Positions 23,919 to 36,880 of a stretch of 64,000 nucleotides of DNA are shown here, piece after piece. Made by a program: the position numbers and the translations under genes. Under the pieces are notes generated by a model, which saw nothing but the letters and a program-made list of their open reading frames with translations, was not told the origin of the DNA and did not search any database. Source of the DNA: Citricoccus sp. K5 (GTDB lineage: Bacteria; Actinomycetota; Actinomycetes; Actinomycetales; Micrococcaceae). The stretch is taken from contig NZ_LR732817.1 in NCBI RefSeq assembly GCF_902506195.1, positions 2,612,245-2,676,244 of the forward strand. The letters run 5' to 3'. Within the stretch, counting starts at the first letter, position 1. Each line of letters starts with the position of its first letter.

Positions 23919-24482
23919 TCAGTCATCAGTTCGGGATTCTGGAGGCGTCCCGGGGCGCAGCAGCGGCGGGAGCACCCCCATCAGCACCGCGATCACGAGG
24001 GCGGTGGCACCGGTGATCCACCAGGCCACGTCCGTGGCCACCAGGACGTGGGCGATGAACGCCACGCAGCCGGCCAGCAGCAGCCCCATCCCGGCCAGGC
24101 AGATCCGCACCACGCGGTCTCCGAGCGCCACGGTGCGGTCCTTGACGAGCCGGCCGAAGAAGCGTCGGTGGATCACCACGGGCAGCAGCATCAGGACGGT
24201 CAACAGCACCGCCGTCACCAGCAGCGCCAGGTACCACCCCTGGAGATGGCTGGCCACCTCGGCGAACCGGGCCTGGAACGGCAACGTCATCAGGAACGCC
24301 GTGACGATCTGCGTCCCGGTCTGCATCACCCGCAGCTCCTGGAGCAGGTCGCTCCAGTTGCGGTCCAGCTTCTCCGCCGGCGTCTCATGCCGGAGGGCCG
24401 CCTCCGGGGATGCGCCCTCACCGGCCGGCGCCGGGGAGTGCCGCTCGCCGGCCGGCTCGGGGCCGTGCGCCGCGCGGCTCAC
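23919..24482 (-). CDS. DUF6328 family membrane protein
   Basis: This 187-residue protein has a charged N-terminus and four predicted helices. LDRNWSDLLQELRVMQTGTQ and FLMTLPFQARFAEV are the DUF6328 signature. The function is unknown. Its GTG (24482) overlaps the ligD stop (GTGA), so it is the second gene of a ligD operon. Confidence 0.85.
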   Translation of the reverse strand: MSRAAHGPEPAGERHSPAPAGEGASPEAALRHETPAEKLDRNWSDLLQELRVMQTGTQIVTAFLMTLPFQARFAEVASHLQGWYLALLVTAVLLTVLMLLPVVIHRRFFGRLVKDRTVALGDRVVRICLAGMGLLLAGCVAFIAHVLVATDVAWWITGATALVIAVLMGVLPPLLRPGTPPESRTDD

Positions 24483-27142
24483 GGGATCTCCCAGCGCACC
24501 TCGTCAGGGGACTTGTCCTCACGCCAGCCCCGCCACGAGGCCTGACGGACCCGGCCGGAACGGGTCCGTCCAGCCAGGGACACCTCGCCCACCAGTGATG
24601 GAGTGACCCACCAGGCATCGGAACGGTCCTCGGCGGGCACGTCCGGCACCGGCGGGGTCTTGCGGTGCAGGCGCCGCAACCGGGATTCGGCATCCGCCAG
24701 CTGGGCCGCCGAGAATCCGGTGCCCACCCGCCCCGCGTACCGCAGGTCACCCGCCTCGTCCGGCACGGCCACCAGCAGGGAGCCGATCCCGCCCGAGCGG
24801 CCACCCTTGCCCTCCCGGGCCCCGATGACCACGACCTCCTGGTGCTGTTGCAGCTTCAGCTTGATCCACGCGGAGCCGCGCCGCCCCGGCAGATACACGG
24901 AGTCCGTCCTCTTGGCGACCACGCCCTCGAGCCCGAGATCGCGGCTGGCCTGCTGGGCGCGGGCAAGGGTCCCGCGGTATCCCGGGGGCACGGACACCAC
25001 GTCCCCGTTCCCGACGCCGGCCTCCAGCACCTCTCGACGCTCACCATAGGGGGTGCGCAGGAGGGAGCGGATCTGCCGCCCCGAGGCGCCCGGCGGCCCG
25101 AGCTGGAGGATGTCGAACACCAGATACCGCAACTCGATCCCCTCCGAATCGGCGGCGGACCGGTCGGTATGACCAGTCGGGGCGGTCCGGCCGGATCTGC
25201 CCCCACGCCGCGTTCCCCGGCTGGTGCGGCCGCTCACCTCCTGGAGCAGTCCGAAGTCCGGCCGGCCCTGGCCGTCCAGGGCCACGAGCTCCCCGTCGAG
25301 CACCGCCCCGCCACACTCCTCCGCCGGTCCAGTGAGCAGCTCGGTGAGTTCCCGCAGGGAGGGATAGTCGGCCGTCAGGTCCTTGCCGTTGCGGCTGGCC
25401 AGGACGACCTGCTCCGGCGTCACCCCGGCCAGGAGGCGGTAGCCGTCCCACTTCATCTCGTAGGACCAGTCCTCATCCGCGGTGAGGTCGGCGGGCTGAC
25501 CGGAGGTGGCCAGCATCGGAGAAGGCAGGTCTGCCACCGTGAACGCGGAGTCCTCCGAACCCTTCGCGGCACGTTTCGCGGTGGGTTTCTCGGCACGTTT
25601 CCCGGTGGGTTCAGCGGTGGTCTTCGAATCGGGTTGTGCGGTGTCCGCCTCCGGCTGGTCCTGCATGAGGTGGAGCAGCCAGTTGTCCTCCCCACCCATG
25701 CCGGGGGCGTTGATCAGGGCGTAGCGCCGCGGCACCCCGCCGAGGCCGCCGTCCGGCCGCCCGGACAGCACGGCGATGACCTCCTTGCCCTCACGCCACT
25801 TCTCGATCTCGATGGTCCCGGCGTCCCAGATGGTGACCTCCCCGGCGCCATACTCGCCCTTCGCGATGGTGCCCTCGAAGGTGCCGTATTCCAGGGGGTG
25901 GTCCTCGGTCTGGACGGCCAGTCGGTTGGTCTCGGTGTCCAGGGGTGGCCCCTTGGGCACCGCCCAGGACACGAGCACTCCGGAGTGCTCGAGCCGGAAG
26001 TCCCAGTGCAGGCGCCGGGCGTGGTGTTCCTGGATGACGAAGGTCGGCCGATCGCCCTCACCGGGCTGCCGTTCCACGGGCGCCTCCGCCGGCACTGGTT
26101 CGGCCGTCTTGTTCGCATCCCGCATGGACCGGTACTTCGCGAGGCGGTCGTTCGCGGCGCCGGTGCCCGGACCCTTGCTGCGGCCGCGTGCACCCGGCGA
26201 GCGGCCGGCGTCGCCCTCGTCCGGACCGCCGGAGCTGCCTGGGCCGTCCGGCACCCAGCCGAGGGGCGCCAGCGGGTCTTGGCCGTCGGCGACCCGCTCC
26301 AGCACCTCGCCCAGCTCCAGATGCTTCAGGTCCGGGTCCTCCAGTTCCGCCCAGGTGCGCGGCGCGGCCACCGAGGGACGGTCCCGTCCACGCAGCGAGT
26401 AGGGAGCCACCGTGGTCTTGGACCCGTTGTTCTGGCTCCAGTCCACGAACACCTTGCCGGCGCGGCTGGCCTTGCGCATGCTGGAGATGACCTCGCCCGG
26501 ATGATCTGCCTCCAGCGCCTTGGCCAGCTCGTGGGCCACGGCGCTGATGTCGTCCGCATTGTGCTGGCCGTCCAGCGCGGCGTAGAGGTGGATGCCCTTG
26601 GACCCCGAGGTCACGGGGAAGGACTCCATGCCCATGTCCGCCAGGATGTCCCGGCACCAGCGCGCCACCTCGGCACAGTCTGCCAACCCCACTCCCTCCC
26701 CTGGATCCAGATCCAGCACCAGGCGGTCCGGGTTGCGTGGCTGCCCGTTCCGCCCGAAACGCCACTGGGGCGTGTGCAGCTCCAGGGCCGCGACCTGGGC
26801 GAACCACGCCAGCACGGCCGGATCATTGGCCAGCGGATAGGTGTTGGTGTGGTCGGAGTGCGCGATCCTGCCGGTCGGGATCCAGGACGGCGCCGAGTCC
26901 TCGAGGTCCTTGCGGAAGAACACCTGTCCGGGCTTCTCCGCCGTACCCACGCCGTCCACCCACCGCTTGCGCGTGAGGGGGCGCTGGGCCACCTGCGGTA
27001 TGAGCACGTCCGCCACCGCGAGGAAGTACTGCATGACCTCGGCCTTGGTGGTGCCGGTGGCCGGGTAGAGCACCTTGTCGAGGCTGGAGACGGAGAGTTG
27101 GTGGTCCCCGACGGTGTAGGTCTGCCGCGCGGAACGTGCCAT
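24479..27142 (-). CDS. ligD: multifunctional ATP-dependent DNA ligase LigD (Pol-PE-Lig)
   Basis: This 887-residue enzyme performs bacterial non-homologous end joining with Ku. The domain order is polymerase/primase (about 1-290; LDLDPGEGVGLADC has the catalytic Asp pair, VTSGSKGIHLYAAL follows), 3'-phosphoesterase (about 365-500; FVIQEHHARRLHWDFRLEHS), and ligase (about 545-880; EMKWDGYRLLAGV with the adenylated Lys, ELVALDGQGRPDF, EGVVAKRTDSVYLPGRRGSAW). This is the mycobacterial order. A low-complexity linker with TGKRAEKPTAKRAAK joins PE and Lig. The ATG at 27142 has GGGGAGGGG upstream; the frame is open further only through ku on the other strand. Confidence 0.97.
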   Translation of the reverse strand: MARSARQTYTVGDHQLSVSSLDKVLYPATGTTKAEVMQYFLAVADVLIPQVAQRPLTRKRWVDGVGTAEKPGQVFFRKDLEDSAPSWIPTGRIAHSDHTNTYPLANDPAVLAWFAQVAALELHTPQWRFGRNGQPRNPDRLVLDLDPGEGVGLADCAEVARWCRDILADMGMESFPVTSGSKGIHLYAALDGQHNADDISAVAHELAKALEADHPGEVISSMRKASRAGKVFVDWSQNNGSKTTVAPYSLRGRDRPSVAAPRTWAELEDPDLKHLELGEVLERVADGQDPLAPLGWVPDGPGSSGGPDEGDAGRSPGARGRSKGPGTGAANDRLAKYRSMRDANKTAEPVPAEAPVERQPGEGDRPTFVIQEHHARRLHWDFRLEHSGVLVSWAVPKGPPLDTETNRLAVQTEDHPLEYGTFEGTIAKGEYGAGEVTIWDAGTIEIEKWREGKEVIAVLSGRPDGGLGGVPRRYALINAPGMGGEDNWLLHLMQDQPEADTAQPDSKTTAEPTGKRAEKPTAKRAAKGSEDSAFTVADLPSPMLATSGQPADLTADEDWSYEMKWDGYRLLAGVTPEQVVLASRNGKDLTADYPSLRELTELLTGPAEECGGAVLDGELVALDGQGRPDFGLLQEVSGRTSRGTRRGGRSGRTAPTGHTDRSAADSEGIELRYLVFDILQLGPPGASGRQIRSLLRTPYGERREVLEAGVGNGDVVSVPPGYRGTLARAQQASRDLGLEGVVAKRTDSVYLPGRRGSAWIKLKLQQHQEVVVIGAREGKGGRSGGIGSLLVAVPDEAGDLRYAGRVGTGFSAAQLADAESRLRRLHRKTPPVPDVPAEDRSDAWWVTPSLVGEVSLAGRTRSGRVRQASWRGWREDKSPDEVRWEIP

Positions 27143-27174
27143 GCCACCCCTCCCCCTGCCTGCCGGCAAGGGCC

Positions 27175-27180
27175 TATGCT
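27175..27180 (+). promoter_or_regulatory. -10 box for leaderless ku
   Basis: TATGCT is followed by GACGCCC and the ATG of ku at 27188. No ribosome-binding site is present, which suggests transcription starts at the start codon. ligD begins only 45 bp away on the other strand. Confidence 0.45.
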
Positions 27181-27187
27181 GACGCCC

Positions 27188-28180
27188 ATGAGAGCCATCT
27201 GGTCTGGATCTATCACCTTCGGCCTGGTGAACGTCCCTGTCAAGGCGTACTCGGCGGCGAAGAAGCATGACATCAGCTTCCACCAGGTCCACGACGCCGA
27301 CGGCGGCCGGATCCGGTACCAGCGCCGCTGCGAGGTGTGCGGGAAGAAGATCGACTATGAGCACATCGACAAGGCCTACGAGGACGGCGAGCAGACCGTG
27401 GTCCTCACCGAAGAGGACTTCGCCTCGCTGCCGGAAGCGCAGAACGACGAGATCGAGGTGGTGCAGTTCGTCCCCTCGGACCAGATCGACCCCATCATGT
27501 TCGGCAAGAGCTACTTCTTGGAACCTCAGGGCAAGTCCCCGAAGTCCTACCTGTTGCTGCGGCAGGCACTGGGGGACACCGACCGCACCGCCGTGGTGAC
27601 GTTCGCGCTGCGCCAGAAGACCCGGCTGGGCGCATTGCGTGTCCAGGACGACGTCCTGGTGCTCCAGGCCATGTACTGGGCGGACGAGGTCCGGGAGGTC
27701 GATTTTCCCGCGACCCGGTCCCGGGCCAAGATCGGCGCCAAGGAGAAGAAGCTGGCAGCGGCTCTGGTGGACCAGTTCGCCTCGGATTTCACGCCCGGGG
27801 AGTTCGAGGACACCTATCAGGTGGAGTTGCACAAGCTCGTCGACGCCAAACTCGAGCAGGGCGAGTCCCTGGACACCGCCGCCACGTTCGGCGACGTCAC
27901 GGAGGAGTCTGAGGGCGAGGATGCCGAGGTCATCGACCTGATGCAGGCCTTGAAGGCCTCCCTGGACAAGAAGCGGGGTGGTCACAGGACCGGTGCCAAG
28001 AAGTCTGGCTCGTCCGGTGGGTCCGATGCCTCCGGCAAGTCTGGCCAGAAGCCGGCCAAGCCGGCCAAGCCGGCCAAGTCCGCCAAGTCAGCGAAGTCCG
28101 GCAAGAAGCCGGCCACGTCGGCGAAGTCCAGCGCGACGTCCGGAGAGAAGTCCGGTTCCCGCCGCCGCAAGAGCGCCTGA
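27188..28180 (+). CDS. ku: DNA end-binding protein Ku
   Basis: This 330-residue protein forms the ring-shaped homodimer that binds double-strand ends and recruits LigD. It starts MRAIWSGSITFGLVNVPVKA. The core includes CEVCGKKIDYEHIDKAYE and QAMYWADEVREVDF. The last 65 residues form a Lys/Ala/Ser-rich tail with the repeat KPAKPAKPAKSAKSAKSG, a DNA-binding extension seen in several actinobacterial Ku proteins. The stop is 1 nt from the topoisomerase ATG. Confidence 0.97.
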   Translation: MRAIWSGSITFGLVNVPVKAYSAAKKHDISFHQVHDADGGRIRYQRRCEVCGKKIDYEHIDKAYEDGEQTVVLTEEDFASLPEAQNDEIEVVQFVPSDQIDPIMFGKSYFLEPQGKSPKSYLLLRQALGDTDRTAVVTFALRQKTRLGALRVQDDVLVLQAMYWADEVREVDFPATRSRAKIGAKEKKLAAALVDQFASDFTPGEFEDTYQVELHKLVDAKLEQGESLDTAATFGDVTEESEGEDAEVIDLMQALKASLDKKRGGHRTGAKKSGSSGGSDASGKSGQKPAKPAKPAKSAKSAKSGKKPATSAKSSATSGEKSGSRRRKSA

Positions 28181-28181
28181 G

Positions 28182-29213
28182 ATGGCCCGGCTGCGGAGGT
28201 CGACGCCGGGCACCGGGGGCTACACCCGGCACCGGGCGGGCACGGGGTTCAGCTACCGGGGCGCCAACGGACGCCGCATCACCAACGCCACCACCCTCGA
28301 ACGTCTCCGTGGCCTGGTCGTCCCGCCCGCGTGGACGGACGTCTGGATCGCCGCGGACGCCCAGGCACATATCCAGGCCACGGGCGTGGACGACGCCGGC
28401 CGGACCCAGTACATCTACCATCCCCAGTGGCGTGCGCGGCGGGACGCCGAGAAGTACGAGCGCGCCCTGTCCTTCGCCGAGGCTCTGCCCGCGCTTCGCC
28501 GCCAGGTGAGCCGGGATCTGCGCCCCGCCGGCACGGCCGGAACCACCGCGAGAGGGAGGGCGAACGGGGACGCGGCGGGCCGGCGTCGGACACTGGCCGC
28601 CGCCGTGCGACTGATGGACCGGGCGGCCCTGCGGATCGGCGGCTCCGAGCACACGGGGCAGTTGGAGGCCTTCGGGGCGACCACCCTGCAGCGCCGGCAT
28701 GTGGACGTCCATGCCCCGCACGTGCACCTGGTGTTCCGCGGCAAATCCGGCAGCGAGTGGGACGTGACGGTGAAGGACCCGGACCTGGCGGACTTCTTCG
28801 GCGGCATCCCGGCCACCCCGCGCACCGCACCGGCGGTGGCGTACCCGATCATGTCCGGCCGGCGCCGGGAGTGGAAGGGCGTGACGGCAGCGGATGTGAA
28901 CGACTATCTCACCGACCTGGCGGGGTTGGAGTTCACCGCGAAGGACTTCCGGACCTGGCAGGGAACGGTGGCGGCGGCGCGGTCCCTGGCCCGCTCGCAC
29001 CGTGCTGGAGTCACGTCCCCGGAGGCCGTGAAGATCGCCGTGCAGGCCGCGGCGGACCTGCTCCACAACACGCCCACCGTGGCCCGGGAGTCATACGTGG
29101 ACCCCCGGGTGGTGGACCTGTTCGAGCGGGGACGGGTGATGGACCTGGACCGTCAGCCGGACCGTGCGCTGCTGCACCTGCTCACCGGAACGGACCAGCC
29201 GGATCGGAACTAG
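28182..29213 (+). CDS. DNA topoisomerase IB
   Basis: This 343-residue poxvirus-type topoisomerase IB relaxes DNA by a 3'-phosphotyrosine intermediate. Visible active-site parts are RMDRAALRIGGSEH-like sequence (Arg near 150), a Lys-containing beta hairpin (VFRGKSGSEWDVTVKD), KDFRTWQGTVAAA and the nucleophile in ARESYVDPRVVDLFE (Tyr near 305). The ATG at 28182 is directly after the ku stop (TGAGATG), so the two are co-transcribed and probably translationally coupled. Its stop overlaps the convergent DUF7218-like gene's stop at a CTAG. Confidence 0.93.
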   Translation: MARLRRSTPGTGGYTRHRAGTGFSYRGANGRRITNATTLERLRGLVVPPAWTDVWIAADAQAHIQATGVDDAGRTQYIYHPQWRARRDAEKYERALSFAEALPALRRQVSRDLRPAGTAGTTARGRANGDAAGRRRTLAAAVRLMDRAALRIGGSEHTGQLEAFGATTLQRRHVDVHAPHVHLVFRGKSGSEWDVTVKDPDLADFFGGIPATPRTAPAVAYPIMSGRRREWKGVTAADVNDYLTDLAGLEFTAKDFRTWQGTVAAARSLARSHRAGVTSPEAVKIAVQAAADLLHNTPTVARESYVDPRVVDLFERGRVMDLDRQPDRALLHLLTGTDQPDRN

Positions 29214-29621: not shown

Positions 29622-29678
29622 ATTGTTGAACAATGCATTGTCATGATTGTTGAACAACCTGTAGTGTTCCCACAGATT
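29622..29678 (+). promoter_or_regulatory. tandem GntR operators over a promoter (NRAMP gene)
   Basis: ATTGTT-G-AACAAT (29622-29634) is a perfect palindrome. TTGTT-G-AACAA (29647-29657) repeats it 24 bp further on. The second site contains a -35-like TTGAAC (29650-29655), 17 bp before CAGATT (29673-29678). The core matches the FadR-subfamily consensus TNGTNNNACNA. An identical site lies before pxpA at 36868-36880. Confidence 0.75.
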
Positions 29679-29717
29679 CGATCGGTGACCCGCATCACGC
29701 GCCCCTGGAAGGACCCC

Positions 29718-30971
29718 ATGAAGGAACCCATGCAGGACCCTGCCCTCGCGAACGCCCCGACCGCTCGGAAACGGCGTCCGAGGAACGCCCAGCGCACGGC
29801 CCTGCTCGGTGCCATGTTCCTCATGGCGACCAGCGCCATCGGTCCGGGCTTCATCACCCAGACCACCACGTTCACCGTCCAGCTCGGCGCCGCCTTCGCG
29901 TTCGCCATCCTGATCTCGATCCTCGTGGACATCGCCGTCCAGCTCAACGTCTGGCGCATCATCGGCATCTCCGGACTGCGTGCCCAGGAACTCGGCAACA
30001 AGGTCTTGCCGGGCATCGGCTGGGTGCTCGCGGCCCTGGTCTTCGCCGGCGGCCTGGTCTTCAACATCGGCAACATCGCCGGTACCGGCCTCGGGGCCAA
30101 TGCCATGCTCGGCTTGGACCCGAAGATCGGCGGCCTGGTCTCCGCGGTGGTCGCCATCTTGATCTTCCTGTCCAAGCGGGCCGGCATGGCCCTGGACCGG
30201 ATCGTCGTGATGCTCGGTGCCGTGATGATCCTGCTCATGCTCTACGTGGCCGTCGTCGCCGCGCCACCCGTCGGAGAGGCCCTGAAGAACACGGTCCTGC
30301 CGGAGACCGTGGACATCCTGGTCATCACCACCCTGGTGGGCGGCACCGTGGGCGGCTACATCACCTACGCCGGTGCCCACCGCATGATCGATTCGGGCAT
30401 CCGCGGCCCGGGGGCCGTGAAGGAGATCACCCGCACCTCCATCCTCGGCATCGTCGTCACCGGTGTCATGCGCGTGCTGCTGTTCCTGGCGATCCTCGGC
30501 GTGGTGGCCGGCGGCGTGGCCCTGACCAGTGACAACCAGGCGGCCGAGGCCTTCCAGCACGCTGCCGGCGAGATCGGGCTGCGGATGTTCGGTGTGATCC
30601 TGTGGGCCGCCTCGGTCACCTCGGTGATCGGCGCGTCCTACACCTCGGTCTCCTTCATCACCAGGTCGGACGGCAACCCCCGCCGCCGCAACCTGCTCAC
30701 CGTGGCCTTCATCGCCGTCTGCGCCGTGATCTACGCCTTCCTGGGCCAGGCACCCCAGACCCTGCTCGTCTTCGCGGGGGCGTTCAACGGTCTGATCCTG
30801 CCCATCGGCTTCGCCGTGCTGCTGTGGGTCGCCCTGCGCCGGCGGGACCTGCTGGGCGGCTACAAGTACCCCGTGTGGCTCATCGTCATCGGGGTGATGG
30901 CCTGGCTGGTGACCGTGTTCCTGGCCGTCTACTCCTTCGCCCCCGCCATCGACCTGCTGACCGGAGCCTGA
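29718..30971 (+). CDS. NRAMP-like divalent metal/solute permease of the pyroglutamate cluster (YcsG-like)
   Basis: This 417-residue membrane protein has about 11 helices. Core NRAMP elements are [14 protein letters not shown] in TM1 and [14 protein letters not shown] in TM6. Compared with canonical NRAMP metal transporters, the TM1 DPGN motif is altered (IGPGF), so it may not move Mn/Fe. Members of this subgroup sit beside pxpABC (as YcsG in Bacillus), so a lactam or amino-acid-like substrate is possible. The ATG at 29718 follows GGAAGGA; an ATG at 29643 lies within the operator and was rejected. It is 5 nt before the DUF1445 gene. Confidence 0.88.
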
Positions 30972-30976
30972 ACCGT

Positions 30977-31765
30977 ATGAGCGAGAACCTGTCCACCCTC
31001 TCCCCCGCCGAGGCCCGGGCGCGCTTCCGCGCCGGGCTGGTGCGGCCGACGTCGGGCATCTCCGCCGGGTATGCCCAGGCCAACCTGATCATCGTTCCGG
31101 CGTCCCACGCCTTCGACCTGCTGCTGTTCGCCCAACGCAACCCCAAGCCCATGCCCCTGCTCGGCGTGCTCGACGCCGGCCAGGTCACCTCGGACCTGCT
31201 GACCGGCGGCGACATCCGCACGGACGTTCCGCGGTACGTGGTCTACGAGGACGGGGTCCCGGTGGCCGAGCCGACCGAGATCACCGACTGGTGGCGGGAC
31301 GACCTCGTGACGTTCATCGTCGGCTGCTCCTTCACCTTCGAGGCGGCACTGGTGGCCGGCGGGGTGCCCGTGGCCCACCAGCAGCAGGGGGTGAACGTGC
31401 CGATGTACCGCACCTCGACCCGCTGCACCCCGGCCGGGAACCTGGCCGGACCGCTGGTCGTCTCGATGCGGCCGGTCCCCGCGTCCCAGGTGGCTGACGC
31501 CGTCCGGATCACCTCCCGCTACCCCGCGGTCCATGGGGCGCCCGTACACGTGGGGTCACCGCACGAACTCGGGATCACGGACCTGTCCCGCCCGGACTTC
31601 GGAGACCCGGTGGAGATCCCGGCCGAGCACATCCCGGTCTTCTGGGCCTGCGGCGTGACCCCGCAGGCGGCCGTCATGGAGTCGCGGCCCCCGCTGGCGA
31701 TCGGTCACGCGCCCGGCCACATGCTCATCACCGACGCGCGGGACTCCGACTACCTGGTGCCCTGA
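30977..31765 (+). CDS. DUF1445 putative hydro-lyase (YcsI family)
   Basis: This 262-residue DUF1445 protein starts [74 protein letters not shown] and [12 protein letters not shown] are the conserved blocks. D-glutamate cyclase, which makes 5-oxo-D-proline, has this fold, so a link with pyroglutamate metabolism is plausible. It follows the permease by 5 nt and converges with the GntR gene. Annotated function in homologues is mostly putative. Confidence 0.88.
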
Positions 31766-31774
31766 CCCGGGCCC

Positions 31775-32467
31775 TCAGAGCCCCCGGCGGTCCAGGTGGT
31801 CCAACAGTTCCGCCTCGGCGGTGTCCAGATACGTCCGCAGGGCGACGGCGGCCTCCTCGCGGCGGCCATCCCGCAGCATCCGAACCAGGTCACGGTTGTG
31901 CTCGGCGTACCCGGAGTGGAAATCGGGGGCATCGGACATCCGGTAGAACACCAGCCGCATCCGGGCCAGCGTCCGGTCCATGACCGTGGACAGGGTCGGC
32001 GAGCCGGCCATCGCCACGATCACCCCGTGCAGCTGCTGGTTCGCGTCCGCCATGCCGGGGACGTCATCGGCCGCGAGGGCGGCGAGCGCGCGCCCGACGA
32101 TCTCGTCCAGCTCGGCCAGCGCAGGTGCGGTCAGGTCCCCCCAGAGCAGGGCGGCCGGCTCGATCATGCGGCGGATCCGATAAATCTCCCGGATGTCCTC
32201 CGCATCCGGCTTGGCGACGAAGACCCCCCGATTGGGCAGCCGTTCGACGATCAGTTCGTCGGCCAACGTCCCGAAGGCCTCGCGCAGGGTGTTCCGGGAG
32301 ACGGCCAGGTCGGCGGCGAGCCCCTGCTCCGCCAGCTTCGCCCCGGGCAACAACTCACCGCGGGAGATCCTGGCTCGCAGGACCTGCGCCGCCCACGCCC
32401 CCGTGTGCGCGTGCGCGGCACGCGCCGTGTGTGCTGGGGTTGAGGCTGGCACTGAGGGCTCAGTCAA
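31775..32467 (-). CDS. GntR-family (FCD) regulator of the pyroglutamate cluster
   Basis: This protein has about 230 residues. It has a winged helix ([55 protein letters not shown]) and an FCD ligand domain ([46 protein letters not shown]). The start is uncertain: I used TTG 32467, about 10 nt after AGGAG; GTG 32533 and GTG 32452 are alternatives. It overlaps the biotin-carboxylase gene and ends the pxp operon. It most likely binds the ATTGTTGAACAAT sites at 29622-29657 and 36868-36880. Confidence 0.85.
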
Positions 32468-34247
32468 GGCGACCCAGCTCCTGTCCCCGTTCCACCGGGT
32501 CGCCCGGGCCGAGTCCGGCGCGGGAGAAGACACCGGCCGACGGCGCCGGCACGGCGGTCTCCATCTTCATCGCCTCCAGCACCACCAGGTCTTCCCCGGG
32601 GCTCACCTCGGCCCCGTCGTCCACGAGCCACGTCACCACGGTGCCATTCATCGGGGCGGGGACGACGCCGGCCCGCTCCCCTGACGAGGCGCGTCCCGGT
32701 CCACCGTCCGTCCCGGCGGTGTCCCCGCTGCCTCCGCTGTTACCGCTGTTGCCGCCGCTGCGCAGGGCACGCACCAGTTCGGCGGGCAGGCCGAGACTGA
32801 CGGCCCTGCCGTCCACGGTGACGGTCATCCCGGTGCGTTCGGCCCCGGGTGTGGCGGCGGCCAGGTAGGGAGAGGCCTCCAGGTCGGCGGCGAAGTCCGA
32901 CTCGATCCAGGTCGTGTGGACGCCGAGACCGTCTTGCGACGTGAAGTCAGGGTGGTCCAGGACGGCCTGGTGGAACGGGACCACGGTCGGCAGGCCGCGG
33001 ATGGCCAGTTCGTCCAAGGCGGTCCGTGCCCGCCGGAGGGCCTGCTGGCGGTCCTCCCCCCAGACGATGAGCTTGGCCAGCAGCGAGTCGTACTCGGCCG
33101 GAACGGTGGATCCCGAGCGCACACCGGTGTCCACGCGGATCCCTGCGCCGGTGGGAGCCTCGAAGGCCTCGACCGTTCCCGGGGAGGGCAGGAAGCCCAG
33201 GGCCGGGTCCTCGGCGTTGAGCCGGAACTCGAGGGCATGTCCGCGCGGGGCCGGATCCTCGCTCAGGGAGAGCCGCTCCCCCGCGGCGATCCGGAACTGC
33301 TCACGGACCAGGTCCACTCCGGTGGTCTCCTCGGTGACGGGGTGCTCGACCTGCAGACGGGTGTTGACCTCGAGGAAGGAGATCAGCCCGTCCGGGGCGA
33401 CCAGGTACTCGACCGTGCCGGCGCCGGTGTAGCCGGCCTCGCGGCAGATGGCCTTCGCCGAGGCATGGATGCGGTCGAGCTGCGCTGACGTCAGGAACGG
33501 GGCGGGGGCCTCCTCCACGAGCTTCTGGTTCCGGCGTTGCAGGGAGCAGTCCCGGGTGCCGACCACCACCACGGTGCCGTGGGTATCCGCCAGCACCTGT
33601 GCCTCCACGTGCCGCGGTTTCTCCAGGAACCGTTCCACGAAGCACTCACCACGGCCGAAGGCCGCCACGGCCTCCCGCACGGCGGAGTCGAAGGCGGACT
33701 CCACGTCCTCCATCCGGTGCACGATCTTCATGCCGCGGCCGCCACCGCCGAAGGCGGCCTTGATGGCCACGGGCAGGCCGTGCTCCTCGGCGAAGGCCCG
33801 CACCTGGGCGGCGTCCTCCGCCGGTCCATCGGTTCCCGGGACCAGGGGCGCCCCGGCGTTGACGGCGATCCTCCGGGCGGAGACCTTGTCCCCGAGGGCA
33901 CGGATCGCTGCCGGGGATGGGCCGATCCAGGTCAGTCCGGCCTCGATCACGGCCTCGGCGAAGTCCGCGTTCTCGGACAGGAAGCCGTAGCCCGGGTGCA
34001 CGGCATCGGCCCTGGAGCGCCGGGCGATCTCCAACAGCCTGCCGATGTCCAGGTAGGTCTCTGCGGCGGAGGTGCCGTCCAGTGCGTAGGCCTCGTCCGC
34101 GCGGTGCACGTGCATCGCGTCCGCATCCGGATCCGAGTACACGGCCACGGACGCGAGTCCGGCATCCGTGCAGGCGCGGGCCACGCGCACGGCGATCTCC
34201 CCGCGGTTGGCGATCAGGACCTTGGTCAGGGTTCGGTGGGGGCTCAT
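32460..34247 (-). CDS. biotin carboxylase fused to biotin carboxyl carrier domain
   Basis: This 595-residue enzyme carboxylates biotin with ATP and bicarbonate. Residues about 8-450 form the biotin carboxylase domain: [49 protein letters not shown] (ATP-grasp Gly-rich loop), [36 protein letters not shown] Gly/Ser-rich linker leads to a BCCP domain with the biotinylation motif EAMKMET (Lys near residue 559). Acyl-CoA carboxylase alpha subunits have this layout, but no acyl-CoA carboxyltransferase gene is nearby. The gene overlaps pxpBC by 4 nt (ATGA), so the partner is probably that protein. Confidence 0.92.
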
Positions 34248-36040
34248 GGATCGGTCCTCTCGGGGACGGTCTCGGAGAAGATGGTCGCGGACGGGGTGGT
34301 CTCAGGCGGAGTGGTCGCGGACGGGGTGGTCGCGGAAAGGGTGGTCAGCACGAAGCGGACACGCGCCCCGGGGGGCAGCTGCGCGGCCAGGGTCAGGTCC
34401 TCCGGGACCACGACCCCGACCACGGGATAGCCGCCGGTGACGGGATGATCGGCCAGGAACAGCACGGGCAGTCCGGACGGCGGCACCTGCAGTGCGCCGG
34501 CCACGGCTCCCTCACTGGCCAATTCACCCTCCTGGATCCGCTCCAGGGGCTTGTCGGCCTCCGGTGTCCTGCCCGGGGACACTGCGAGCCGTACGCCGAT
34601 GCGGTTGGACTGGTCGGTCACGTGCCAGTCCTGGCCGGCCAGCCGGTCCAGCCCGGCCGGGCCGAACCAGTCGTCGCGGGGTCCGGGAACCACACGCAAC
34701 TCGGTCGTCGCCCCGGACCGCGGCATGCGGCGCAACGGCGGTTCATCGCTCCCGACGGCGGCATACCCAGCTCTCGCGCCCACCGGAACCTCGGTGCCGG
34801 CGACCAGGGGTGCGGGCCCGAGTCCGGACATGGTGTCCGTCGAGCGACTGCCCAGCACCACGTTGGCCTCCAGTCCTCCGCGCACAGCCACGTAGGTGCG
34901 CAGACCGGCCGTGGGCTCACCGATCTCAAGGACCTCCCCGTCATAGAGGGCGAAGGGTGTCCGACGGGCCACGACCCGGTCGGCCGGCAGTCCTCCGGCG
35001 ACGGCCGTGATGACCGCTGGAGCTTCGGCGCCGGCGAGCGCCAGGACCTGGTGTCCGCGTGCGCGCAGCCGCAGTCCGCCGAGCAGCGTCTCGATCACGG
35101 CCGCCCCCGGTGCGTTGCCCACGATCCGGTTGGCCTGCCGGGCCGAGCCCGCGTCTGCGGCACCGGCGGCGGAGACCCCGAGGTCGCCCTGCCCCGGTCG
35201 GCCCAGGTCCTGGATGAGCGACTGCAGTCCGGGGTGTTCGATGACCACCGCGGGACCGGTGCCGGTTGCCGCGGTGCCGGCCGGCGTCGTACCAGGGTCC
35301 GTGTTTCCTCCCGCACTGATGCGCGCCTGGTCGCGGACGGCACGGTAGCGGACGCGGTCCCCCGGGGCCACCAGCGCGGGCGCGGACCGGTTCAGGTCCC
35401 ACAGGGTGGCGTTGGTGCGGCCGATCAACTGCCAGCCGCCCGGTGAGGACCGGGGGTAGACGGCGGAGAAGCGTCCGGCCAGGGCGACCGAACCGGCCGG
35501 GACCGTGGTGCGGGGGCTGTCGCGGCGGGGGATGTCCAGGGTGCGGCCATCCCCCGGGTGGTCCGCCGAGTTGTCCGCTGGGTTGTCCGCTGGGTTGTCC
35601 GCTGGCACCAGGTAGGTGAAGCCGGGGGCGAAGCCACCGAAAGCCCCGATCCAGGCGGTCTCGGTGTGCCAGCGGATGAGCCCGTCCCGGCCCAGACCGG
35701 TCAGTTCGCCGACCTCGTCCAGGTCCTCGCCGTCGTAGACGACCTCGATCTCCACCAGACCTCCCGCCTGGACGTGACCCTCCACAGGCCCCCACGCGCG
35801 CAGGACCTCCGCGGCGGACTGGGCTGCCCCGCGATGAGTGAAGGACAGCGCCAGGGTCTCGGCGGCGGCCAGCGCCTCGACCTGCCCTGGCAGCGGTTCG
35901 GAGGTGAGGCGGGCGTGCATCGCCACGACGTCGGCCAGGGACCGGCACTCGAGGAGGAAGGCCCGGGTGCCGGACCATCGGATGCCGCGCGGGCTGGTTC
36001 CCGGCTCCGCGAGGTGGCCACCGGGTGCGGTGCCGCTCAC
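34244..36040 (-). CDS. 5-oxoprolinase subunits B and C fused (KipI-KipA; AHS1-AHS2)
   Basis: This 598-residue protein joins PxpB (about 1-245; [35 protein letters not shown]) to PxpC (about 265-580; [66 protein letters not shown]). These domains are homologous to the AHS1/AHS2 part of the urea carboxylase carboxyltransferase. An in-frame 12-bp repeat encodes PADN units in the PxpB half (35559-35606), and the C-terminus ends in a Thr/Ser/Pro-rich repeat ([18 protein letters not shown]). It overlaps both pxpA (GTGA) and the biotin carboxylase gene. With PxpA it should hydrolyse 5-oxoproline to glutamate with ATP. Confidence 0.92.
35559..35606. repeat. in-frame 12-bp microsatellite within pxpBC
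   Basis: TTGTCCGCTGGG occurs at 35571 and 35583, TTGTCCGCTGGC at 35595, and the diverged GTGGTCCGCCGA at 35559. It encodes repeated Pro-Ala-Asp-Asn. Copy number changes would keep the frame. Confidence 0.7.
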
Positions 36041-36813
36041 GCGAAGGAGCCGATCCGCACCCCGGCCCCCTCGAGACCGGCCCGGACGGCAGCCGCCATC
36101 GCCACTGCCCCGGGGGTGTCACTGTGGACGCAGATGCTGGCCGCCTCCACCCGGATCTCGGTGCCGTCCACCGCCGTCAGCGTTCCCTCGGTGGCGAGCC
36201 GGACCATGCGCTCGGCGACCAGCTCCTCGTCATGGAGGACGGCGCCGGGCTCACGGCGGGAGACCAGGGTTCCCTCCGGGGTGTAGGCGCGGTCGGCGAA
36301 GGCCTCCGTCACCACGCGCATCCCCTCGGCCGAGGCGATCTCGGCGGCCACCGCCCCGGGCAGCAGGAGGAGCGGCAGCTCGGGATCGTAGGCCTTGACG
36401 GCATCCACCACGGCCCGGGCATGCACGCTGTGGTGGACGATCGTGTTGTAGAGGGCGCCATGCGGCTTGACGTACCGGACAGCGGTCCCGGCCGCATGGG
36501 CCATCGCCTCCAGGGCGCCGATCTGGTACAGGACGTCGTCGGCCAGTTCAGTGGGCGAGCAGTCCAGGAACCGGCGGCCGAAGCCGGCCAGATCCCGGTA
36601 CGCCACGTGCGCCCCGACCGTGATCCCCGCCGCCGCGGCGTCCCGGCAGGTCTGCGCGATGACCGACGGGTCGCCGCCGTGGAAGCCGCAGGCGACGTTC
36701 GCGGAGGACACCGAGCGGAAGATCGCGGCGTCGTCGCCCAGGGTGTACGAGCCGAAGGACTCGCCGACGTCACTGTTCAGGTCCATCTGTGCGGTGCTGC
36801 CCTGTGCGTTCAC
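36037..36813 (-). CDS. pxpA: 5-oxoprolinase subunit A (LamB/YcsF)
   Basis: This 258-residue LamB/YcsF protein has [78 protein letters not shown] and [17 protein letters not shown], all hallmarks of PxpA with metal-type Asp/His residues. It works with PxpB and PxpC to cleave 5-oxoproline. GTG at 36813 follows GGAGG at 8 nt. It is the first gene of the minus-strand operon pxpA, pxpBC, biotin carboxylase, gntR, all overlapping. The operator at 36868-36880 lies over its promoter. Confidence 0.95.
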
Positions 36814-36844
36814 GGTGGTGACCTCCGTCTCTCTTCTTGGTCAC

Positions 36845-36880
36845 CCCAGCATGCCCCACCGACACCGATTGTTCAACAAT
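36845..36880 (-). promoter_or_regulatory. pxpA promoter with GntR operator
   Basis: On the minus strand ATTGTT-G-AACAAT (36880-36868) contains a -35-like TTGAAC, followed 17 bp later by CATGCT as a -10. The palindrome is the same as in front of the permease gene, so bound repressor would cover the -35 region. Confidence 0.75.

Follow-up and report, generated by a model that had tools for sequence, protein, structure and literature searches.

A pxp operon of Citricoccus sp. K5 that may encode a split, urea-carboxylase-like, biotin-dependent 5-oxoprolinase

In a stretch of 64,000 nucleotides from Citricoccus sp. K5 (contig NZ_LR732817.1, here C1, positions 2612245-2676244; 'the window' below), a gene for a biotin carboxylase (BC) fused to a biotin carboxyl carrier protein (BCCP) lies in one operon with the genes for PxpA, PxpB and PxpC, the components of the prokaryotic 5-oxoprolinase. 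What does a biotin enzyme do in such an operon? We lean towards a 5-oxoprolinase that depends on biotin and resembles urea carboxylase, but with its parts split over separate proteins. The coupling of BC-BCCP to the PxpB-PxpC protein is the firmer half of this proposal and 5-oxoproline as the substrate is the softer half.

The enzyme genes and their products

Three genes carry the proposal:

36037..36813, minus strand: pxpA (LamB/YcsF family), ring-opening hydrolase subunit (PF03746, E 3.8e-99; NF003814, 358 bits against a cut-off of 226)
34244..36040, minus strand: pxpB-pxpC fusion, with urea-carboxylase-type carboxyltransferase domains (PF02682, CT_C_D, and PF02626, CT_A_B; AlphaFold2 model)
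32460..34247, minus strand: biotin carboxylase-BCCP of the AccA3 type (Biotin_carb_N, CPSase_L_D2, Biotin_carb_C and Biotin_lipoyl from Pfam; AccA3 match; BC motifs; clade in the BC tree; Lys561 in EAMKM; W540)

An earlier reading of the bare sequence (the original prediction) had described overlapping genes, with BC and BCCP on one protein and PxpB and PxpC on another. The Pfam domains bear out this division, and the overlap is indeed 4 nt at each enzyme junction: GTGA between pxpA and the pxpB-pxpC fusion (pxpBC), and ATGA between the fusion and the BC gene. As also noted then, an acyl-CoA carboxyltransferase (CT) gene is missing nearby: there is no PF01039 match within the window, and the four in the genome are at C1 17423, 634156, 2424586 and 3692695. 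The cluster holds the only LamB_YcsF match and the only CT_A_B match of the genome. As this single CT_A_B match is the pxpBC of the cluster, no urea carboxylase was found elsewhere in the genome.

The BC-BCCP protein matches AccA3 over its full length (E 3.1e-213). Its BC catalytic motifs, whose residues presumably have their usual roles, are intact, and the biotin site of the BCCP domain is EAMKM with Lys561. The AlphaFold2 model of PxpBC (predicted local distance difference test score 86.8) matches TTHA0988, the Mycobacterium smegmatis structures 3mml and 9yx5, Escherichia coli YbgJK and the Kluyveromyces lactis urea carboxylase. PxpB and PxpC are far above the cut-offs of their Pfam domains and below those of the NCBIfam equivalogs (TIGR00370, 107.9 against 145.55; NF045499, 152.3 against 500); the urea carboxylase model TIGR02712 likewise stays below its cut-off. 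Solved relatives of the window PxpA are 2dfa, 1v6t, 2xu2 and 1xw8.

In the reaction that we propose, the BC domain would use ATP and bicarbonate to carboxylate the biotin on Lys561 of the BCCP domain. The carboxybiotin would then swing to the PxpB-PxpC fusion, acting as carboxyltransferase, which would place the carboxyl group on the lactam of 5-oxoproline, probably on the nitrogen. PxpA, the lactam hydrolase, would open the activated ring, and the resulting N-carboxy-glutamate would lose CO2 to give glutamate. The BC-BCCP would be a dedicated AccA3-type copy. Such chemistry would copy that of urea carboxylase and allophanate hydrolase, in which N-carboxylation opens an otherwise unreactive amide to cleavage.

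Linkage of BC to pxpBC in other genomes

Within the same order, 110 of 149 genomes contain a CT_A_B match. The survey used 80 regions and 30 short loci taken from these places (more than 20 further places were left out). A BC of the window type lies beside pxpC in 18 of the 80 regions and a different BC (type d) in two, while 60 have no BC.

A genome collection, described as covering 84,980 species, was also scanned. A first scan with a single protein as query gave no matches; with an alignment of 14 BC-linked PxpBC proteins, at least 561 relatives were confirmed, and the best 80 of these were kept. A BC is present in 68 of the best 80 and absent from 10, and in two the contig ends just after pxpC. 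As the query alignment was built from BC-linked proteins, the figure of 68 in 80 describes this branch rather than PxpBC generally; with so many of the best loci carrying a BC, the arrangement is not due to chance. A BCCP match accompanies the BC in 66 of the 68 (none was seen in L145 and L161). The hosts of these best 80 loci include Actinomycetota (Micrococcaceae, Microbacteriaceae, Arthrobacter, Cryobacterium, Corynebacterium, Brevibacterium) and Pseudomonadota (Pseudomonas, Rhizobiaceae, Comamonadaceae, Acinetobacter, Xenorhabdus, Cedecea). Many relatives in the collection also retain the GntR, permease and DUF1445 genes. The gene set is widespread in two phyla and not peculiar to this genome.

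The two genes are typically tightly joined. The median gap between pxpC and BC is -4 nt, and 76 of the 84 gaps measured (the window included; L124, L129 and L165, which have no start, left out) fall in the range from -60 to +100 nt. Misassigned start codons probably account for some of the other eight. In Nesterenkonia natronophila (L146) there are two pxp clusters, one with BC-BCCP and the other cut by the end of the locus.

Phylogeny of BC and PxpC

Both trees are quick ones, with SH-aLRT (Shimodaira-Hasegawa-like approximate likelihood ratio test) support and no bootstrap. One alignment (A2) took in 57 of 72 PxpBC loci, eight of the 80 loci having been left out as not read in one frame. The PxpC tree has 191 rows. 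All 87 BC-linked rows, including the window, fall inside one clade of 113 (support 98); 26 of the rows without BC are inside it and 53 outside. The BC-linked label changes 13 times on this tree, at least six times by the starred branches, and several gains or losses are needed. PxpC of urea carboxylase and of type d are together on one side of a branch with support 100.

The BC tree has 94 chosen rows, among them 17 of the 18 order loci with a window-type BC, 31 of the 68 collection loci and 15 of 22 urea carboxylases (L115, L182, L161 and L035 were too short). Here 48 pxp-linked BCs, the window BC and four actinobacterial AccA3-type genes form one clade (support 100), in which the nearest relatives of the window BC are from Micrococcaceae (Arthrobacter). 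The urea carboxylase BCs are elsewhere, which rules out the window BC as a derivative of urea carboxylase, and the two type-d BCs are near AccC-like rows. The comparison to urea carboxylase in the original prediction stands in part: the same parts are present, split over two proteins, but the BC is related to AccA3 and not to the BC of urea carboxylase.

The two type-d loci (L041 and L076) have the order pxpA-BCCP-BC-pxpB-pxpC, with an AccC-like BC and a small, separate BCCP-like frame (EIMKQF) between pxpA and BC. A third locus of this second pxp lineage in the order (L035) is cut within BC. From the BC and PxpC trees, together with the type-d gene order, it seems that there were separate pairings of a BC with such a CT, one each for urea carboxylase, type d and the window type.

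Sequence signatures of the linked proteins

The comparison set 83 pxp-linked BC-BCCPs against the AccA3 type, represented by 13 rows from 12 distinct genes. The strict biotin motif is present in 76 of the 83 complete pxp-linked open reading frames (ORFs) and a variant MK motif in six of the other seven; in two pxp-linked BCCPs (L114 and L151) EAMKT replaces EAMKM. The BC domains are 64% identical between the two groups (69% and 73% within them). The linker that joins BC to BCCP is the most divergent part of the protein, with 24% identity between groups against 32% and 42% within.

A position in the BCCP domain, 21 residues before the biotinyl lysine (residue 540, W in the window protein), also distinguishes the groups. 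It was picked post hoc by a scan of all columns. In the alignment it is aromatic in 81 of the 83 pxp-linked BCCPs (W 71, F 8, Y 2). A gapless reading, which covers 81 of 86 pxp loci and 15 of 29 other BCs (L230 and L248 being one gene), gives an aromatic residue in 79 of 81 pxp-linked rows (67 W, 8 F, 4 Y; Val or Gln in the other two) but in only one of 12 AccA3-type proteins, one of 15 other BCCPs and none of 21 urea carboxylases. The latter are aromatic at position 538 instead (21 of 21; W 19, F 2). An exception is a Comamonas BC-BCCP that is not pxp-linked (L216), with Phe at 540. We read the aromatic residue as a putative docking feature for the AHS-type CT. Candidate AccA3-group markers at 216, 230, 260, 268, 279, 305 and 308 were dropped: the Tsukamurella AccA3 (a single gene that entered the set under two handles, L220 and L231) has pxp-like letters.

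The Pxp proteins themselves are less informative. There are 33 PxpC positions that are kept through the CT domains of urea carboxylase too (this comparison concerns PxpC only), and no convincing residues were found that separate BC-linked from BC-less PxpB or PxpC. PxpA differs between BC-linked and BC-less groups at a few positions (14, 52, 125, 185 and 227). Position 14 is Ser in 81 of 87 BC-linked rows and in the two type-d rows; of the 45 BC-less rows outside the clade, 35 have Ala. As a marker of biotin dependence Ser14 was dropped: the Pyrococcus horikoshii PxpA (1v6t) has Ser, and the 25 BC-less rows inside the clade have 15 Ser, 9 Ala and 1 Gly.

AccA3 as a possible shared partner

PDB entry 9yx5, released 2025-11-26, is entitled 'Structure of the long chain acyl-CoA carboxylase complex from Mycobacterium smegmatis with MSMEG_0435-MSMEG_0436 bound'. 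According to its title and chain list, chains V and W are M. smegmatis PxpC and PxpB, and AccA3 is in the same entry. M. smegmatis PxpC falls among the BC-less forms. AccA3 is a shared subunit in M. tuberculosis (PMC11001197).

In each of nine genomes whose cluster lacks BC (Kribbella outside the BC-linked clade, the other eight inside it), one gene matches the window BC-BCCP with 57-60% identity over its length, and no second BC-BCCP-like gene was found in any of the nine. At the columns that distinguish the groups, AccA3-like letters occur in eight of the nine; Tsukamurella is mixed. Where the operon has no BC copy of its own, the housekeeping AccA3 may serve as a shared subunit, which fits both the position of M. 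smegmatis PxpC among the BC-less forms and the single AccA3-like gene in each of the nine genomes.

That BC-BCCP is the partner of PxpBC, as the original prediction proposed, is thus supported from four sides: the conserved linkage, the repeated independent pairing, the title and chains of 9yx5, and the BCCP signature.

Arguments against a biotin-dependent reaction

Several observations weigh against the proposed reaction. The three recombinant B. subtilis proteins PxpA, PxpB and PxpC reportedly suffice for ATP-dependent 5-oxoprolinase activity (Niehaus 2017), and E. coli pxpBCA has no adjacent BC. Most of the order-level pxp regions (60 of 80) lack a BC, as do the 26 rows inside the BC-linked PxpC clade. 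E. coli PxpB keeps 18 of 18 and PxpC 32 of 33 of the shared positions, and no residue specific to a biotin-dependent form was found; either all of these proteins do the same chemistry, or the difference cannot be read from sequence. The AccA3 proteins of BC-less genomes do not have the aromatic residue at 540, although sharing of AccA3 requires docking there too. In 9yx5, PxpBC may touch a subunit other than AccA3, and the association may be a product of co-purification. Finally, phosphorylation of 5-oxoproline by PxpB and PxpC is what has been assumed in print (PMC13274462).

Alternative explanations

The best surviving alternative, which we consider doubtful, keeps the carboxylase and changes its substrate: BC-BCCP and PxpBC would act not, or not only, on 5-oxo-L-proline. 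The compound carboxylated, and then hydrolysed by PxpA, would be the D-isomer, a different lactam or something akin to urea. All of the evidence for coupling is neutral as to substrate. The cluster of the window and those of many relatives include a gene of the D-glutamate cyclase family (PF07286), whose function, as we understand it, fits 5-oxo-D-proline, and the PxpA differences between BC-linked and BC-less groups could be taken in the same sense. The window PxpA is, however, an ordinary member of its family, above the NCBIfam subfamily cut-off, and in the tree its PxpC belongs with the Pxp proteins rather than with urea carboxylase. In addition, an NRAMP-family gene accompanies pxpABC in B. 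subtilis and Corynebacterium glutamicum, where 5-oxoproline is the substrate (PMC13274462, PMC10448178).

It is quite unlikely, in our view, that PxpABC works by the assumed ATP-dependent, kinase-type route with BC-BCCP as the alpha subunit of an acyl-CoA carboxylase whose beta subunit is encoded elsewhere. In favour are the full-length AccA3 match and the B. subtilis enzyme that is said to work without BC. The genome also offers a possible partner, which can be judged from the inventory of its biotin enzymes. There are five BC genes: the window BC, L003, L004, L005 and L006. L004 is an AccA3-type BC-BCCP gene (BC domain 64% identical to that of the window) with a strong PF01039 match (L007) some 6 kb away, L003 is beside a second PF01039 gene (L008), and L006 shares one frame with a PF01039 match (L009). 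L005, whose long frame has neither a PF01039 nor a CT_A_B match, is probably pyruvate carboxylase.

The only CT without a BC neighbour, L010 (284-2997), is an AccD-AccA-like fused carboxyltransferase, scoring to both the AccD and AccA models; the ORF beside it looks, as far as we can judge, like a CaiB-type CoA-transferase. Similar CTs (49-61% identity) were found in four of the 11 BC-linked and two of the nine BC-less actinobacterial genomes examined. Because of this distribution L010 cannot be said to travel with the window BC, and it was rejected as its partner; the orphan CT is missing from seven of the 11 BC-linked genomes. Against the alpha-subunit explanation, moreover, BC is linked to pxpC across two phyla, the genome already has another AccA3-type gene (L004), and a different BC is paired with PxpBC in the second lineage. 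The entry 9yx5, which by title and chains has PxpB and PxpC with an AccA3-containing complex, points the same way.

That BC-BCCP binds PxpBC for regulation only (for example, by bicarbonate, ATP or biotin status), with no carboxyl transfer, is highly improbable. In its favour, there is little to tell BC-linked from BC-less forms in the residues of PxpB and PxpC; against it, the biotin site and the BC motifs of the window protein are kept, which regulation would not require.

Comparison with known systems

The split biotin-dependent 5-oxoprolinase that we favour can be set beside several known enzymes. With the PxpABC 5-oxoprolinases (E. coli ybgJKL, B. subtilis ycsF-kipIA) it shares PxpA beside PxpB and PxpC, the conserved PxpB and PxpC positions and the fold of YbgJK (5dud). 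It differs in the fusion of pxpB to pxpC, the BC-BCCP in the operon and the scores of PxpB and PxpC below the equivalog cut-offs. Unlike in urea carboxylase and urea amidolyase, the parts are on two chains (with the ATGA stop/start overlap) and the hydrolase is PxpA; furthermore, the BC is on the AccA3 branch and PxpC outside the urea carboxylase branch.

Like other biotin-dependent carboxylases, the window protein has the BC catalytic motifs and the biotinyl lysine of BCCP. PxpBC has the CT fold of urea carboxylase and is linked to BC, and is a candidate for the cognate carboxyltransferase. The alpha subunits AccA3 and AccBC have the same BC plus BCCP architecture and belong to the same clade. 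They differ from the window protein in the linker and the aromatic residue at 540, and no beta subunit accompanies the latter in the window. The M. smegmatis complex likewise brings together an AccA3-type BC-BCCP with PxpB and PxpC. It is, however, a long-chain acyl-CoA carboxylase complex, its PxpB and PxpC are separate chains and its PxpC is of the BC-less kind.

An older enzyme may also be relevant. The two-component 5-oxoprolinase of Pseudomonas putida described by the Meister group consists of component A (64 + 51 kDa), a 5-oxoproline-dependent ATPase, and component B, which is needed for hydrolysis (PMC8453981). A split carboxylase would behave in just this way, as a 5-oxoproline-dependent ATPase requiring a separate hydrolase. 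In ten Pseudomonas loci the computed masses are 60.5-62.1 kDa for BC-BCCP (nine loci), 55.3-57.2 kDa for PxpBC (ten) and 26.5-27.2 kDa for PxpA (eight). We offer as a suggestion only that component A is BC-BCCP plus PxpBC and component B is PxpA. Component B is given as 82 kDa, so that PxpA, at about 27 kDa, would have to be an oligomer, and the passage cited makes no mention of biotin (PMC8453981).

Wider implications

If a large group of bacteria does activate 5-oxoproline with CO2 carried on biotin, a widespread '5-oxoprolinase' would be a lactam carboxylase/hydrolase, a biotin enzyme of a new class. Some of the genes now annotated as additional acetyl-CoA carboxylase subunits may then bear the wrong name. 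Lactiplantibacillus pentosus may offer an example: one paper reports both an additional BC and BCCP and a pxpB/pxpC pair there and leaves them unconnected (PMC12427679). How PxpBC activates 5-oxoproline is presented in the literature as an assumption (PMC13274462). In 2011, when there were no functional data, Lombard and Moreira saw that the urea carboxylase CT has split homologues (PMC3199775). In searches among open-licence PMC papers we found no biotin-dependent 5-oxoprolinase.

A bolder version, which we judge unlikely, is that PxpBC is a carboxyltransferase everywhere and that all prokaryotic PxpABC enzymes use biotin-dependent N-carboxylation with a borrowed housekeeping BC and BCCP (AccA3 in actinobacteria), the P. 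putida component A being BC-BCCP with PxpBC. In that case it would be a mistake to read PxpBC as a kinase. To our knowledge, the Thermococcales perhaps have no BC. Homologues of the split CT have been reported from this group (PMC3199775).

Neighbouring genes

The remaining genes of the cluster are as follows:

31775..32467, minus strand: GntR/FCD regulator, 3' of BC-BCCP on the same strand (PF00392, PF07729; junction sequence)
30977..31765, plus strand: D-glutamate cyclase family protein, DUF1445 (PF07286, E 3.8e-66; NF003969 above cut-off; ATG at 30977)
29643..30971, plus strand: NRAMP-family permease, taken as the YcsG/PxpT kind (5-oxoproline and/or Mn; disputed) (PF01566, E 1.6e-25)

The minus-strand genes thus run pxpA, pxpB-pxpC, BC-BCCP, GntR, and the permease and D-glutamate cyclase family genes are convergent to them. 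The presence of a LamB/YcsF partner, a DUF1445 protein and an NRAMP-like permease had been predicted from the sequence and agrees with the Pfam matches (PF03746, PF07286, PF01566), which place the permease in the NRAMP family. Its family and position are our grounds for assigning it to the PxpT/YcsG kind. PxpT is required for growth of C. glutamicum on 5-oxoproline (PMC13274462), and B. subtilis YcsG has been argued to import Mn (PMC10448178). NRAMP-family neighbours are common in such pxp clusters, both in the order regions and in the collection loci. The GntR frame is open from position 32533 onward; with TTG at 32467 as its start codon, the gene would overlap the BC gene by 8 nt.

Beyond the cluster, judging from the translations, we take the end of a plus-strand frame (to 28180) to encode a Ku-like protein and the frame at 24479-27985 (minus strand) a LigD-like ligase, arranged head to head (24479-28180) as a bacterial non-homologous end joining pair. 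Adjoining this pair, at 27978-29213 on the plus strand, is an ORF whose translation resembles a type IB DNA topoisomerase.

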